From IMG/VR virus record IMGVR_UViG_3300044695_000426, positions 1-21,585 of that record: a stretch of 21,585 nucleotides of DNA. One strand, written 5' to 3'. The position numbers were made by a program, and so were the translations under genes. Each line of letters starts with the position of its first letter. The first letter of the stretch is position 1. Under the pieces are notes generated by a model. That model was not told the origin of the DNA. It worked only from the letters and a program-made list of their open reading frames with translations, and ran no database searches. This DNA is from a virus. This document shows positions 852-18,416 of the stretch, piece by piece.

Positions 852-988
852 TGGCCCTCCTGAGAATTGCTAGGTGGATGAAAAAATTTTCTTGATCCAC
901 AAAGAATGCAGTATAGTTCTAGATTATTTATCTCTGTATACTGTCTATCTATAAACATTCTTCCATTACATTTTTTACATTTAATCAC
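797..988 (-). CDS. Small zinc ribbon protein, 63 aa
   Basis: The protein has two CxxC knuckles, C4-K-K-C7 and C27-I-L-C30, separated by 19 residues. This is the spacing of a zinc ribbon that should bind one zinc ion. The start codon is GTG at 988-986, overlapping the TGA stop of the adhesin gene before it as GTGA, a typical coupled junction. The last 17 or so residues are encoded in the overlap with the helix-turn-helix gene and carry that gene's ribosome binding site. Zinc ribbons of this size in phages are usually nucleic-acid or protein-contact modules, and the exact role is unknown. It marks the change from tail genes to what appears to be a regulatory or DNA-related segment. Confidence 0.75.
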   Translation of the reverse strand: MIKCKKCNGRMFIDRQYTEINNLELYCILCGSRKFFHPPSNSQEGQWLLKKEQLRAKSTMSHL

Positions 989-1431
989 GAGTTTGGTATT
1001 CCAACTGCTATTATATTAATTCCCATCGTTGTCTCTCCTCCAAGATTAAACTTCACGGTTCCTTCTACCTTTGATGTTGTTATGCTGTTGATCGTTACCG
1101 TAACGTCCTTTCCAGAATCATTAACACCCTTGTTGAATGCAGTTGCCGTAACAATTGGAGGGTATTTAAACTCTTTTTCAAAATCATGTGACCAAGGCAG
1201 AGAACTTCCTGCTGCTTGCAACGAAGAGGGGGAAACTAGTTCGTACCCACCAATTACATTTGCTCCAGAAGTTTTTGCGGTTTGTGGACCGTTTCTCTCT
1301 GTATCAACGACAAGGTATCCTATCTTAGAGGGAGCAACCTGAGTATACAATTCGTTAACTGACTGAACAATTTGATAAATATATGTTACGTCTAGTGGTT
1401 GACCACGCTCTGGTAAAGGTAAGATTGCCAT
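985..1431 (-). CDS. Putative tail-tip adhesin with H-type-lectin-like domain, 148 aa
   Basis: Residues 10-35 (PLDVTYIYQIVQSVNELYTQ region) look like a short trimerising helix. Residues 75-148 are a beta domain. The pattern, 'F..E....PPIVTATAF', then 'VTVTINSITTSKVEGTVKFN', then a closing 'INIIAVGI', resembles the H-type lectin fold found at the ends of phage and invertebrate receptor-binding proteins. It is probably a small trimeric host-binding protein. The start ATG at 1431 has no Shine-Dalgarno sequence. Instead a TGGTATAAT element lies exactly six bases before it, so the transcript may begin at the ATG itself. Re-initiation after the stop of the gene before it, seven bases away, is the alternative. 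The lectin assignment rests on pattern only. Confidence 0.7.
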   Translation of the reverse strand: MAILPLPERGQPLDVTYIYQIVQSVNELYTQVAPSKIGYLVVDTERNGPQTAKTSGANVIGGYELVSPSSLQAAGSSLPWSHDFEKEFKYPPIVTATAFNKGVNDSGKDVTVTINSITTSKVEGTVKFNLGGETTMGINIIAVGIPNS

Positions 1432-14600: not shown

Positions 14601-16597
14601 TCTGCAAACTTCTTTGGAACTACTCCAGGACGTGCAGCACCTGGCATACCAAATGCTCTCTGTGCCACCATTGCTCTTTGATATGCTAATGCTAATGCTC
14701 CGACTGCTGATGCTTCAGATGTAAATGTTTGTCGTAATCTTTGATGAACCTGATCAAGAGATGCTGCTACAGCAGATGCCTCAAGTTGTTCCTTAGTTAA
14801 ATAGTTTGTCTGCTCTCCAAGAATTTGTGTAGAAGATCCTGCTCTTTGAAATCCACCTCTTAGGGTTGCAAATAGTTTAATTATATTTGCAATACCATTA
14901 GCAAGCAAACCAAAAGACATAAGGGCAATTGGTCCAATTGCTCCAAGTGCTACTGTTAGTATTGTTATAAACCTTTTGCTACCGTCCCCAAGATCATTAA
15001 ACTTATCTAGTATCTTTGCAGCAAATTCAACAATTGGTGTTAGTGCTTTTAAGAACTGCTCTCCAACTGGAGCAAGAGTTACCTTTAGGTCTTCAATTGC
15101 TTTTTTAAACTTATATGTTGTTGTTTCTTCAATCTTTCCTAATTCTCGTTCAGACAAAATTGCTAGTTCTTCTGTTGTGTTCTTTGTAAGTTCTAGAACT
15201 CTTGCTGCCTGTGTTCCTTCTGCTGTTACATTTTGGAACAGTGTTGAAAGACGAGAGAACTGGAACTTGCCGAACAACTGCTCGATTGCTCTTGCACGGT
15301 TTAGTGGGTCTAACGTATCAAGTGCTTTAGAGAATTCAACAACTGTTGACTTTACATCGCCCTTATTTGCTTCTACAATTCCCTTAATATTTATGCCAAG
15401 ATCTGCAAGGAATCCTGCTGCTTTTTCAGATGGATTAATTAATGACGCAAGACCAGACTTAAGTGCGTTAGCACCTTCTGATGCGTTAATGCCACCCTCC
15501 TTCATTGCTGTAAGGAAGAAGGCTAGATCTTCTACATCTCCACCAAGTTGCTGAACAACTGGACCAGCCTTTGGAATCGCTATTGTTAAATCTTCAATAG
15601 ATACTACAGTTTGGTTTTCCACTGCGTTTAGGAAGTCAATTTTCTTAGTTAAATCTTCTGTAGCAACACCAAAAGCATTTGTAATTGATATAGTTGTTTC
15701 AAGTGCCTGCTCTTGTTCTACACCGCCAAGTACGGCAAGTCTTGTTGCTTGTGCAACCTGTGCAGTTAGTTCTGCTCCAATCTTACCTTGTGCTGCAGCG
15801 TCTGCTGCCATTTTCATTGTTTCTTCTACTGCAACGCCATACTTTGTATATTCTTTTGCCAAAGTCTGTATTTGATCAACCATATCCTGTGTTTGCTCTT
15901 TAGTCGTAAACATGTCTCCATATACACGCTTAAACCTAATTGCCTGCTCTTCCATTGCCATGAAAGTTTTTCCTGCAGCAGTTCCTAGCATTACAAGTGG
16001 TATTGTAAAACCAACCATTAACTGGCGACCAGCCCATTGAGTATTTTTACCAAAATTTAAAAGGTTGGTAGATCCCTGCTTAAGCAGTTGGTTTAAAAGT
16101 TGTTGCTTTTGTGCTGCCATGGCTGTTTGTGTGCCAAGGTTTTTCATGTCAAGCGCCAAAGGTCTTACAGCAATTGACTCTATGGCTCCGTTTGCGCCAC
16201 GGCCCAACTTAACATATTGTGTCTGTACATCTTTTACACGTTCACGGGCTACTTTGTTTATTGTTTCAAATTCGGATTTAAATAATCTACCGAAACTTTT
16301 TGTGGCTGCACCAGTATATCTAAAATACTCTCGTGACGTTAATTTATTTTTTTCTAGTGCATCAGTAAAAGACTCTGTGCTTGACTTGACTGAGCGCATT
16401 GATGCTTGGAATTTTCCAGTAGCATTTATGCTGTTCATCAAGTTTTGTGCTTGATTTGCTGAAACTGCTGATGCTGCTGCACCAGACTTTGACATCTGTG
16501 TATGGAAGGCTGATATTTGACGTTGCAGAAGTTTTAGACTTGCTAAAGCATCAGACGTATCAATATTTACATTAATATTGGATTGAACATCAGCCAT
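8615..16597 (-). CDS. Tape measure protein, 2660 aa
   Basis: It sets tail length, is packed inside the tube, and is released at DNA injection. Residues about 1-170 are helical. Residues 185-480 carry the TP901-type tape measure core ('TQWAGRQLMVGFTIPLVMLG', 'FMAMEEQAIRFKRVYGDMF', 'LAKEYTKYGVAVEETMKMAADAAAQG'). Strong hydrophobic helices lie at about 542-570, 1174-1237 and 1424-1461 and could insert in the host membrane. A long coiled coil spans about 2110-2333. Two cysteine repeats lie at 2365-2384 and 2398-2417. The motif 'GG...D[ST]VP.M...GE.I[IM]S' occurs twice, near 661-700 and 2564-2606. AGAGGTG precedes the ATG. It is much longer than the typical 700-1500 residues, implying a very long tail. 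No lysozyme or peptidase domain was recognised. Confidence 0.95.
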   Translation of the reverse strand: MADVQSNINVNIDTSDALASLKLLQRQISAFHTQMSKSGAAASAVSANQAQNLMNSINATGKFQASMRSVKSSTESFTDALEKNKLTSREYFRYTGAATKSFGRLFKSEFETINKVARERVKDVQTQYVKLGRGANGAIESIAVRPLALDMKNLGTQTAMAAQKQQLLNQLLKQGSTNLLNFGKNTQWAGRQLMVGFTIPLVMLGTAAGKTFMAMEEQAIRFKRVYGDMFTTKEQTQDMVDQIQTLAKEYTKYGVAVEETMKMAADAAAQGKIGAELTAQVAQATRLAVLGGVEQEQALETTISITNAFGVATEDLTKKIDFLNAVENQTVVSIEDLTIAIPKAGPVVQQLGGDVEDLAFFLTAMKEGGINASEGANALKSGLASLINPSEKAAGFLADLGINIKGIVEANKGDVKSTVVEFSKALDTLDPLNRARAIEQLFGKFQFSRLSTLFQNVTAEGTQAARVLELTKNTTEELAILSERELGKIEETTTYKFKKAIEDLKVTLAPVGEQFLKALTPIVEFAAKILDKFNDLGDGSKRFITILTVALGAIGPIALMSFGLLANGIANIIKLFATLRGGFQRAGSSTQILGEQTNYLTKEQLEASAVAASLDQVHQRLRQTFTSEASAVGALALAYQRAMVAQRAFGMPGAARPGVVPKKFAEGGIISGPGGPKSDSVPIMASNGEAIISAEIVKKYPGLIQGLIAGNIPGYKNAGVVGSKSVKFGGSDYSLPAGSQTINAIQAKIDGSIGVVDDIIAQALQNLASETKISTKMFVKEVRRIAQEQGRRVADLGKEFASKSEKRVGGGGAYAAPKSLGSPADQLRRERGAVAAAAEMAPARASAKAIRRTMEQYGASQSQIANATQIDRSHTVAVSKEQKGVKTGAKTGMKSPAWNSAVWTPQTGAENNSILESLKKSERYRKLYQEYLVKTGATEAQITSIMANINNGVALTEEQLSIQGKALRQIAVDSRTNAEIEKRTSKNFIMYADAVGQGALAREKVLARQPKQLRELTIRNQKAIQAIAEELPNAAALALQTQSPSRKMRKVGQDAGAGLILGAREYIDDAKATGQALGAATVQGSQSKAAASRTALYGTGPIDANQKSLRRQLERQQKKSALAQKSGYPASVITSGAADSAKNQTPSSRMSTLSQKIKDKRAERKNSGTGMGAGGKMMAASGVMMGASMIPGAVGDAAQKLMMPMMALSMIMPLLTSGIGIAVVALGAIAGAIYFFNQSIKKARQAGIDLAQSMTMTSEKLQSLSEITGKVSATEAADRKRQNTLTGASGVQRKFGQNVLESDFGKTLLGDIEKQAASGQGIQQIGTNISNSLAYAIVQGIITTDQARSISSALGEELKSYEIPAIVSGKLTTLLGPNGENLASDPLKITLAIQKESMERQSNFFKAALEQSVSTTTFTNVGQVIGGGILAAAGGLTAALTGFTGIGAVAGVGMTAAGANSVRAGMSDQNKRTQVNEKLGSAAIQLGLEQVTMNNGLVDSLNKQYDIKVSMAKTDKEIQGIEREREAALVKLNAKNAEALNLLIAQKDAFGPDVFTNAINASIDAMYKEGPMKVFAEEAKKELKDIEDEDFRAMLQLQFASGALDPITVTKLANNKEIQSKFKILVETQGAEDANVVMQLLMKAGVSDQNIPIFMDILNKDPKNFDKNMNAISVLSNMQQKYGITVDVNDDGASQVKEVVAITERLKGIKGEELTKQAFLDLGITGDMTSDEFNKLWTTLVGTSKTINKSVVVDFVAAGDKNVLSAYLASEGIPQLKGRGAANQKKRLQKKANAWLVGRQGKIVDDGGTTGGVTGGGEKDKIDSSPLDDLVKRLRDVRKNQIKVTEGWMASSKTLNKLFGGKKTIGIFSGIENDMRKLGAGEDLIDLITGMDPAEYEAQKDKLFNFDENGNISGLKDTAQSIQDALQSIKLGEFVSDQEKMAKQIGNQVTALGRLKAAGIDGSVALEAVADATFAAAIANKNLDDKQIKDIADAWKIATAEKRNYLALEALQAEETMLDDNVALLQRLTEVMGVFTKEQLNAIMQSENLKKALINLSSVKPGTEGYQRFLDVLKKALNKEKIQLQIDAVSIEGMQKIFDQGFSTAMERVDVEEKRLTLKFDAETEGLQATIDAAQDKIDEAQYKIDDKEAALRAIEKQEEKINEKYDDRIKALDEVEKANAAISQQQKGQLSLAEALTSGDIAAAAKAAQEMRAQAAEDAVTKEKEALEKARENELSKVTSGGKTRKVLEQEIKVLEDYIFDLEEKDIEKPEEEIRKKNVILRDQIKELDKVRRKWEEYQQRIDEARVNNARSQQAIDNAEKIIQPLIDAYKNEKVDIILPAGGFEDPVPVDPTPIPGPGNELTYCPSLGRNVPTVGFPGNCPGAESSGKPNPESLVYCPSLGRNVPSSGFPGNCPGGDSGTTPAKKGNADPTPPPAAKPTLEELQKKDPFYNNSILHRQELDRIAQDAKKNLMLFQQNMNVREITKNAGSTPGMHVDSLYKQQNAAAIQNAMKPTPGMLAQEKAVRDAAAQAAAQKKAAAAPKSLFSMPAGIGKGYSMGGLIPSYFAVGGFAKGTDTVPAMLTPGEFIMSKYAVDTYGVDNMRKINNGDSIGGTVYNNTYTLTVNAKTDAKPNDIAQAVMSTIKRVDDRRVRGVSLNGR
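9347..9505 (-). repeat. Two 60-base coding repeats of a cysteine motif in the tape measure
   Basis: Two copies of a 20-residue unit, YCPSLGRNVPxxGFPGNCPG, occur with a 33-residue period (bases 9446-9505 and 9347-9406). Eighteen of 20 residues are identical between copies; only the two marked x differ (TV versus SS). The DNA copies differ at several third-codon positions, so the protein sequence rather than the DNA is being kept. Each unit has two cysteines 16 residues apart, suitable for a disulfide-closed or metal-bound loop, set in a proline- and glycine-rich linker after the long coiled coil. Confidence 0.85.
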
Positions 16598-16615: not shown

Positions 16616-16939
16616 TTAATTATTTACAAGGTTGCCAAGTAGTGAAGCGTCTGAAAGTCTAATTCCAGATGCCTCTTCGACGATCTTGTATACTGTTGGA
16701 AGGTCTAGATTTTCTTCTAGTGCTTCCTTGTCTTCTGCCAATTCTGGCTTGTATTGTCTCATAGCGATTTGAACGCAATCGATAAGCAAGTCCATTGACT
16801 TTTCATTATCTTCTGCTACCTTTGCGATATCTTCAAACTTCTTCATAAATGGACGAAGTAGTGATATCTTTAGTGGTCTTACCTTGATCTTTGTTCCGTC
16901 GATCAAAGTTACTGTTTTTTCTTCAGTGGCGGTTGCCAT
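16616..16939 (-). CDS. Tail assembly chaperone, short paralogue (G-like), 107 aa
   Basis: The protein has only the compact N-terminal chaperone domain: a 'TVTLIDGTKIKVRPLKI' beta hairpin, then helices, then 'LEENLDLPTVYKIVEEASGI'. It would bind the tape measure during assembly, like lambda gpG. It aligns along its whole length with the first 97 or so residues of the gene just upstream, with about 40% identity by eye (shared LxDGT, PLKI, LRxF, QYxP, NLDLPT, AxGI). The gene ends 18 bases before the tape measure start, so there is no room for a frameshifted extension. AGGAGG five bases before the ATG is a strong ribosome binding site, and an extended -10 promoter lies upstream. Confidence 0.85.
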   Translation of the reverse strand: MATATEEKTVTLIDGTKIKVRPLKISLLRPFMKKFEDIAKVAEDNEKSMDLLIDCVQIAMRQYKPELAEDKEALEENLDLPTVYKIVEEASGIRLSDASLLGNLVNN

Positions 16940-16965
16940 TTATTCCTCCTTATAAGGTTTAGTCA

Positions 16966-16974
16966 ATTATACCA
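16966..16974 (-). promoter_or_regulatory. Extended -10 promoter P4 before the short chaperone
   Basis: The minus strand reads TGGTATAAT in the 58-base gap between the two chaperone genes. No -35 box is visible. Transcription from about 16959 would give a leader of about 20 bases containing AGGAGG (16945-16950) before the ATG at 16939. A ten-base palindrome, CCTTATAAGG, at 16948-16957 overlaps the edge of the ribosome binding site and could be an operator or chance. This promoter would also drive the tape measure gene. Confidence 0.65.
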
Positions 16975-16997
16975 TAGCACAGGCTTATTTTTTACTA

Positions 16998-17675
16998 TTA
17001 ATATGATTCGTAGTCAAGACCCATCCCAATACCAAATCCAGCCATTTCTGCATTTCTTCCTTGTAATGCAAGTATGTCATTACCATCTGTTGCTGCACCT
17101 TTACTAAATACCCTGGCTTTCATGTCTTCCCAAGCATTTTGATTGCCTGAGTTTTTATCTAAATCAACCCCCTGCATTGCAGCAGCAAACTTTTTGTCGC
17201 TATAATCTAACTCTCTTTTTATTTTAATTGTTGCAGTTAGTTCTGCCATTGACAAGGAACTTTCTAGTTCTTCGTAGTCTTTCCATATTCCAATAAGAAA
17301 TGCCTCTGCTTCTAGTTTTGCTAAATCTAGAGTGTCCCAGGATGCTCCACTATCAACTGCTTGCGATTTTACAGTATCTTCAGATTTTTCATTAATTTTA
17401 ATCCCTGCTGCAATGTCTATTACCTCATAGATAGTTGGGAGATCTAGATTGTCCTCAAGTTCATCGACTGTCTTAATGTGTGGAGCATATTGCTGCATTG
17501 AGATTAATGCACAGTTAACCAAAACAGATATTGACTGATCGTCCGTGGTTGCTTTTTTAATTGTATCAAATTCTTCTAAAAATTCTCTAAGGTATTTTAT
17601 TTTAAGTGGGGCAGCGGAAATCACAGTTCCATCCACCAAACTAAATTTCTTTTTGTTGTAAACGCTTGTTGCCAT
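16998..17675 (-). CDS. Tail assembly chaperone, long paralogue (GT-like without frameshift), 225 aa
   Basis: Residues 1-97 are the same chaperone domain as in the short gene that follows (LVDGT, PLKI, LREF, QYAP, NLDLPTIY, AAGI). Residues about 98-225 are a separate C-terminal extension starting with a polar linker (NEKSEDTVKSQAVDSGASWD), then helices, and ending in a glycine- and methionine-rich tail (MAGFGIGMGLDY). It thus has the layout of a GT fusion but is encoded in one continuous frame. No canonical -1 slippery heptamer was seen around the domain boundary. I take the ATG at 17675. A TTG at 17705 would sit inside the upstream terminator hairpin. No Shine-Dalgarno is present. A TGGTATACT element six bases before the ATG suggests a leaderless message. 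Confidence 0.85.
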   Translation of the reverse strand: MATSVYNKKKFSLVDGTVISAAPLKIKYLREFLEEFDTIKKATTDDQSISVLVNCALISMQQYAPHIKTVDELEDNLDLPTIYEVIDIAAGIKINEKSEDTVKSQAVDSGASWDTLDLAKLEAEAFLIGIWKDYEELESSLSMAELTATIKIKRELDYSDKKFAAAMQGVDLDKNSGNQNAWEDMKARVFSKGAATDGNDILALQGRNAEMAGFGIGMGLDYESY

Positions 17676-17681
17676 TATATA

Positions 17682-17690
17682 AGTATACCA
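17682..17690 (-). promoter_or_regulatory. Extended -10 promoter P3, leaderless geometry
   Basis: The minus strand reads TGGTATACT, then six bases (TATATA), then the ATG of the long chaperone. A start site 6-7 bases past the hexamer falls on the ATG itself. The gene has no purine-rich ribosome binding site, so the geometry explains how it can be translated: leaderless mRNAs are common in actinobacteria. The element sits directly on the T-rich end of the terminator of the previous gene. No -35 box was seen. Confidence 0.65.
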
Positions 17691-17722
17691 AACAGAAAGG
17701 CCCAATCCAGAAGGATTGAGCC
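17689..17722 (-). terminator. Rho-independent terminator after the major tail gene
   Basis: The minus-strand RNA folds as GGCUCAAUCC, loop UUCU, GGAUUGGGCC: a ten-pair stem with one G-U pair, followed by UUUCUGUUU. The hairpin spans 17699-17722. It lies 20 bases past the stop codon of the major tail gene. The stem is equally strong on the plus strand, but no plus-strand gene ends there and there is no T tract on that side. Confidence 0.9.
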
Positions 17723-17741
17723 TCTCATATATTAAGTTGTA

Positions 17742-18416
17742 TTATGCTGATAGTGTACGATCAACGATCTTACCGTATGATGCGTCATCATTTGGAAGAA
17801 GACGGAATGATACTTCAAACATTGAAGCCTCATCACGCTTTGCTGATACTGTAACATTCTCAATTGAGAGTGCACGGTATGCAACATAAATTCTTTCCTT
17901 TGGTGTTAGTGCAGAACCAGATCCTGGTCCTACTGCTACAAGGCCACGCTCTAGTGGAACGTCACCAATATCTCCAGCAGACATCTTGAGCGTTGTTGCG
18001 CCTGATGCTGTTGCTAGATCTGTATCATCTCCTGCAATTGCTACTAGAAGATTTTCTAGTGTTGCCTCTGCAAAAGCAGTATTTAGATTAACTGTCATAC
18101 CTTGCTTGAACAAACGAGCAACGTCGAGAAGTTGATCTACTGCTACTTCACCAAAATCTGGCTGAAAAGCAAGTTCCAAACCATTAGATGTGTATCCAAT
18201 GTTTGTGTAATCTTCTGTCCAGTCTGGTGTTAGGCTATCGTTTGACAATGTTTCCTTTATAGAAGTTGCTGACTGTGCGAATGATGGTAAATCTAATGCT
18301 GCTTGAGCATCGGTAATCTTTCCATCTTCGTCTAGTCCGATTGGGCCTGCATTATGTGTGAAAAGTGCTGCTGCACCCACGATAATGTTACTACTTGAAC
18401 CACGGCTATATGCCAT
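17742..18416 (-). CDS. Major tail tube protein, 224 aa
   Basis: It forms the hexameric rings of the tail tube. The evidence is its place between the tail-terminator-like gene and the chaperone/tape measure pair, its 224-residue length, and its make-up: acidic, beta-rich, with strands such as 'LELAFQPDFGEVAVDQLLD', 'ERIYVAYRALSIENVTVSAKRDEASMFEVSFRLLPND'. The last block, ending in 'FEVSFRLLPN', is a pattern typical of phage tube proteins. Its start has AGAGGTGAG just upstream. It alone in the window is flanked by both a promoter (18465-18473) and a strong terminator (17699-17722), which fits a protein needed in hundreds of copies. An Ig-like decoration domain is not present. Confidence 0.85.
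   Translation of the reverse strand: MAYSRGSSSNIIVGAAALFTHNAGPIGLDEDGKITDAQAALDLPSFAQSATSIKETLSNDSLTPDWTEDYTNIGYTSNGLELAFQPDFGEVAVDQLLDVARLFKQGMTVNLNTAFAEATLENLLVAIAGDDTDLATASGATTLKMSAGDIGDVPLERGLVAVGPGSGSALTPKERIYVAYRALSIENVTVSAKRDEASMFEVSFRLLPNDDASYGKIVDRTLSA

Follow-up and report, generated by a model that had tools for sequence, protein, structure and literature searches.

The window analysed here, a 21,585-nucleotide stretch of viral DNA (IMG/VR record IMGVR_UViG_3300044695_000426), carries on its minus strand a tail locus with the gene order major tail protein, gene A, gene B and tape measure (Table 1). The tube gene occupies the position of the annotated major tail protein in Streptomyces phages, and the host of the phage is probably actinobacterial. 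The stop of B lies 18 nt from the start of the tape measure gene at 16597, as the original prediction, made from the letters of the window, had counted. The tape measure is the expected client of both A and B.

Table 1. Features of the tail chaperone locus, in order of transcription
Feature	Position	Strand	Basis and remarks
Major tail (tube) protein	17742..18416	(-)	PHROG 2175, E 2e-31; weak match to Phage_TTP_17; upstream neighbour of A
Terminator-like hairpin	17695..17726	(-)	14 pairs and a T-rich tail; between the tube gene and A
-10 box of A, TATACT preceded by TG	17682..17687	(-)	Ends 6 nt before the ATG; without Shine-Dalgarno sequence
Gene A, putative long tail assembly chaperone (GT, TAC-NC type)	16998..17675	(-)	ATG start, 225 aa; in-frame fusion
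G (chaperone) domain of A, residues 1-98	17382..17675	(-)	Alignment to B and PHROG 10504
Linker of A, residues 99-112	17340..17381	(-)	Site where relatives carry the slippery site; without heptamer
T domain of A, residues 113-225	17001..17339	(-)	PHROG 10474; homologue of the Stanwilliamsviridae -1-frame T
-10 box of B, TATAAT	16966..16971	(-)	26 nt before the ATG of B
Shine-Dalgarno sequence of B, AGGAGG	16945..16950	(-)	Sequence
Gene B, putative short tail assembly chaperone (G, TAC-N type)	16616..16939	(-)	ATG start, 107 aa; paralogue of the N-terminal domain of A
Tape measure protein, 2660 aa	8615..16597	(-)	PhageMin_Tail, E 7e-25

The two small genes had been described as sharing a chaperone domain at about 40% identity by eye. 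BLASTP aligned residues 1-98 of A with residues 1-99 of B at 42% identity (E 9e-26), and a profile-profile comparison built on 63 homologues of each protein gave a probability of 99.9% and an E value of 1e-34 (hhalign). Both proteins matched PHROG 10504 (E 3e-20), and PHROG 10474 was matched by the C-terminal part of A only (residues 130-218, E 9e-17). The open reading frames and these PHROG matches bore out the further statement that A has a long C-terminal extension in frame and that B ends after the domain. Read from the genes alone, the short and the long encoded proteins share their N-terminal domain.

PHROG 10504 and PHROG 10474 are also the families matched by G and T of phage Coruscant, whose G/T genes sit between those for the major tail protein and the tape measure and carry the annotation tail assembly chaperone. 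The G part is homologous to Stanwilliamsviridae G at about 40% identity; the T domain of A is 42% identical to Coruscant T and has tblastn matches to Streptomyces T frames. The tblastn searches matched 124-128 phage records, mostly annotated as tail assembly chaperone, and with A as the query they comprised 127 Streptomyces phages and Rhodococcus phage NiceHouse. Among the matches listed, A matched in two pieces; in the phages read in detail, the cause is that G and T lie in different frames. Judged by sequence, A is an in-frame fusion of homologues of the G and T halves of the Stanwilliamsviridae chaperone, and B is a second, stand-alone G. Homology and gene position together point to the roles of long chaperone for A and short chaperone for B. 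Neither A nor B matched a chaperone family in Pfam, and a sequence search of the PDB matched nothing. A Pfam match to Rubisco LSMT fell below its cut-off, and matches to SGTA_dimer or Arc were weak and confined to few members; all were set aside.

Structure prediction had been proposed as a check on the duplication, and the AlphaFold2 models of the N-terminal domain of A and of B were alike in the order of their elements, two strands followed by helices, with a pLDDT of about 85 for the G domain of A. Two rows were left out of each of the underlying alignments (L456 and L482, by position). In a Foldseek search of 350,542 PDB chains, the best match to the B model was the HK97 tail assembly chaperone gp13 (2ob9; E 0.28, probability 0.63, TM score 0.45), a score too weak to establish kinship by itself. 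The A model had no useful Foldseek match.

The G/GT frameshift is widely conserved in long-tailed phages. Single-gene frameshift versions, for which a search of related genomes had been suggested, were found among the relatives of this lineage, which we take to be siphophages; they have homologous G and T and conserved slippery sites. In ten relatives read in detail, a stop codon closes the single G gene, and the -1 frame stays open through T over about 112-126 codons. The slip site in the G/T overlap is CCCAAAT in the Loccivirinae, CCCGGAA in the Boydwoodruffvirinae, usually with a -1-frame stop directly upstream, and GGGAAAA in NiceHouse; a joined G-T product is annotated in the records of Patelgo, TunaTartare and NiceHouse. 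The apparent site CCCGGAA of four Boydwoodruffvirinae (L163, L165, L167 and L169), usually right behind a -1-frame TGA, is not of the canonical form X-XXY-YYZ and may be an unusual kind of slippery sequence in tail chaperone genes.

We next surveyed the architecture of such loci in six IMG/VR scans with profiles of A, B and the T domain, classifying the loci with HMMs for G and T. The scans covered the best 80 loci each, and many loci were the same contig repeated, so that the counts do not equal frequencies in nature. Within this scope, at least 404 of about 490 loci had GT fused in frame and followed by a second G, and at least 79 had one G only, its T lying in the -1 frame; no locus among the approximately 490 listed combined the two layouts. 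Among the loci listed, the 79 frameshift loci consisted of 61 with a Streptomyces-type G and 18 with a B-like G, and in the latter a canonical heptamer, GGGAAAC, CCCAAAT or CCCAAAC, preceded the stop of G by 37-46 nt. Loci that departed from these layouts had short stored sequences or an apparent assembly frameshift. In 150 of 160 loci, the genes ran in the order major tail protein, in-frame GT fusion, G and tape measure. Distinct A sequences carried into further analysis numbered 221, of which 103 were non-redundant at <80% identity.

Several loci were considered as intermediates and rejected. In four with GT and no G (L352, L355, L116 and L474), the stored sequence stops soon after T, and in another (L433:3407-3724) the split of B over two frames is probably an assembly frameshift. 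One locus with overlapping ORFs (L408) was set aside. In a single contig (L060), gene A is 153 aa long, with the middle of the T domain absent in frame and its ends kept; the shortened T may be real or an assembly join. A NiceHouse-like locus (L253:2988-3359) has its T frame broken midway (TT-TT), possibly by a sequencing error. The only match in bacterial genomes (L492) has the single-G frameshift layout and stems from a MAG labelled uncultured cyanobacterium. It is probably a mis-binned phage contig in a contaminated bin, and its gene content fits this phage group.

A scan of A and B in the window, as had been proposed, found no canonical X-XXY-YYZ heptamer in frame. Among relatives of A, an in-frame heptamer occurred within the 45 codons before T in 31 of 205, as opposed to 29.8 +/- 3.8 in codon shuffles. 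A lacks the marks of a programmed -1 frameshift: its T is fused in frame, and its relatives have no excess of heptamers. The tails of B align to the old slip site (S-D-A-S-L versus D-D-P-N-L) and have no heptamer there; seven heptamers were found among 128 distinct tails, all of them elsewhere. Residual frameshifting in A or B was rejected on these scans of A, B and the B tails. The linker of A, N-x-K-S-E/D-E/D, resembles the -1-frame product of CCCAAAT sites, P-K-S-D-D. This likeness is short and is a possible fossil of the old slip site.

Both copies are maintained. In relatives, dN/dS was about 0.1 for the G part of A, about 0.06 for its T part and about 0.08 for B (range 0.05-0.10), low values indicating that all three are kept as protein under purifying selection. 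The G domain of A changes faster than B, with a mean pairwise identity of 0.47 versus 0.62, and B was the more conserved in 155 of 171 pairs. The G genes of the frameshift group score best with the B profile.

The start signals of the two genes are of opposite kinds. The original prediction had two promoters and a separate start type for each gene, leaderless versus AGGAGG. Both sets of signals, the leaderless-like one of A and TATAAT with AGGAGG of B, are conserved in 103 non-redundant relatives. A Shine-Dalgarno-like motif preceded A in none of the 103, and TANNNT stood 5-7 nt before the ATG in 95, with a spacing of exactly 6 nt in 81 of them, as opposed to a mean of 4.8 at other distances; the start of A is predicted to be leaderless. 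B had a Shine-Dalgarno-like motif in 102 of the 103 and TATAAT 18-45 nt upstream in 99. The G genes of frameshift relatives start like B, with a -10 box, a leader and usually a Shine-Dalgarno sequence. Of the two start types, the leaderless one of A is therefore derived. Of 221 relatives, 131 had a terminator-like hairpin ahead of A and 1 had it between the two genes, so B could also be read from the promoter of A. From these signals we infer that expression may now set the G:GT ratio, giving a suitable excess of B. Elsewhere in the window, the start at 1431 (985..1431, minus strand) also looks leaderless (TGGTATAATtatattATG, without a Shine-Dalgarno sequence), so such starts may serve other genes of the phage.

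We placed the change on a backbone tree of the tail tube protein and the N-terminal tape measure (55 rows, 707 columns). All 19 two-gene representatives formed one clade (support 100/99), and a frameshift phage (L443) was its sister (99/95). The other frameshift phages lay outside the two-gene clade, with the Streptomyces-type group as the outgroup. The two-gene clade is thus nested among frameshift phages, which makes frameshifting the ancestral state, with one loss. This change appears to have occurred a single time and to have been retained thereafter. The proposed duplication is supported in that the two-gene form is derived and has one origin on the backbone tree.

The tree of the G domain resolved an A clade (100/99) and a B clade (99/98), with a long stem for A and with the frameshift G genes near B on short branches. 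NiceHouse was omitted from the later G and backbone trees for its very long branch. With one such locus tested on the G tree, the AU test for whether the B-like frameshift phages split off before the duplication gave p 0.33. A combined G+T tree recovered the A clade (99/99), in agreement with the backbone tree.

Taken together, we read A as the long (GT) and B as the short (G) chaperone of a long-tailed phage, the two-gene form having arisen from a duplicated G and a fusion, and we assign this reading a probability of about 0.88. The ancestral layout would have been a lone G gene followed by T in the -1 frame. A tandem duplication of G would then have occurred in one ancestor, the upstream copy becoming permanently joined to T in frame and the downstream copy losing T, and the slippery site would have gone from both copies. 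B would coat the tape measure in many copies, and A, through its T part, would tie the tape-measure complex to the tube subunits. The dose of A may be set by its promoter and leaderless-type start, and that of B by its promoter and strong Shine-Dalgarno sequence, probably with read-through from A.

This division of labour follows phage lambda. There, G covers the tape measure, and GT, the rarer form at a G:GT ratio of about 30:1, brings in tube subunits through its T part (PMC5009743). A TP901-1 mutant with only a permanent G-T fusion forms normal-looking, non-infectious particles, which has been taken as evidence that a G:GT ratio is needed (PMC4493119). Because that fusion was non-infectious, a fixed GT fusion would need a separate source of the short form, and B would be that source. 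At about even odds, we hold the wider proposal that this is a single traceable swap of frameshifting for duplication and fusion, in which control of G:GT moved from elongation to the start of transcription and translation and the G domain of A subsequently diverged, perhaps to take up a fixed position in a chaperone assembly of mixed composition.

Other explanations of the pair were weighed against the duplication. In one of them, B would have taken up a new role, for example in assisting a different part of the tape measure, and A would give both forms by proteolysis or early termination. The copies are indeed not equivalent, the G domain of A diverging faster than B; however, B retains the ancestral sequence and start type, as expected if it kept the old short-form role, and A has no conserved slip site. 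We regard a new role for B as very unlikely. The view that the two small tail genes are unrelated, and alike by chance or through shared composition, is refuted by the BLASTP and hhalign values (E 9e-26 and 1e-34), the shared PHROG and the same predicted topology, and its probability is negligible.

A different history, in which the two-gene form is the older one and phages with a B-like G are reversions that regained frameshifting, draws on the tree of the T domain alone (119 columns), where 12 frameshift T domains were nested among those of A. Taken at face value, this nesting would suggest a regained frameshift or an exchange of T. A single A clade was not rejected for the T domain by an AU test, however (p 0.335), and the G+T and backbone trees contradict the nesting; we provisionally treat the conflict as noise or some exchange of T. 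Reversion would also require several independent regain events, whereas the backbone tree has a nested two-gene clade (100/99) and frameshift phages branching off one after another outside it, and the distant relatives L168 and L253 frameshift too. We therefore consider reversion very unlikely and retain duplication and fusion as the preferred history.

The locus resembles several known systems. As in lambda-type G/GT (PMC5009743), a short form and a long form with a C-terminal T are encoded between the tube protein and the tape measure; the lambda-type pair, however, is made by a -1 programmed frameshift, whereas here a fixed in-frame fusion is accompanied by a separate paralogous G gene. Stanwilliamsviridae (for example the Streptomyces phages Coruscant, Karimac and Patelgo) share homologous G and T and the same gene order but carry one G gene only, and their T follows CCCAAAT or CCCGGAA in the -1 frame. 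In Rhodococcus phage NiceHouse, too, the gene order is shared and the T part is homologous, but the G is longer and lies in a single gene, with a GGGAAAA slip site and an annotated frameshift.

In T4-like phages, separate short and long chaperone genes are described as replacing the frameshift (Vladimirov, Gautam and Davidson 2022, via PMC10274946). By that description, they resemble this locus in having a short-form gene and a long-form gene into which a copy of the short form is built, without a frameshift. Considered as a strategy only, the arrangement here is the same, with the short and the fused long form on two genes and no frameshift, and the separate-gene principle itself is already known from T4-like phages. 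These are a different phage group, however, and no T4-like record was among the tblastn matches. Here the genes are neighbours with opposite start types, frameshift relatives are known and the point of change can be located on a tree. On the evidence of its direct frameshift relatives, the present case appears to be independent of the T4-like one. What is apparently new is the split of start types, together with frameshift relatives from which the change and its direction can be read; the literature searched, which covered few subscription papers, contained no earlier report of this two-gene case.

Evolution can thus replace a programmed frameshift by gene duplication, in a large uncultured group related to Streptomyces phages. 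The coexistence of frameshift relatives, a placeable loss and a large two-gene clade raises the question of whether the frameshift serves the ratio only or also links timing and stoichiometry. For annotators, the absence of a slippery site need not mean the absence of the long form. PHROG 10504 and PHROG 10474, both of unknown function in PHROGs, correspond to G and T of the tail assembly chaperone in Stanwilliamsviridae, which suggests a function for the two families.
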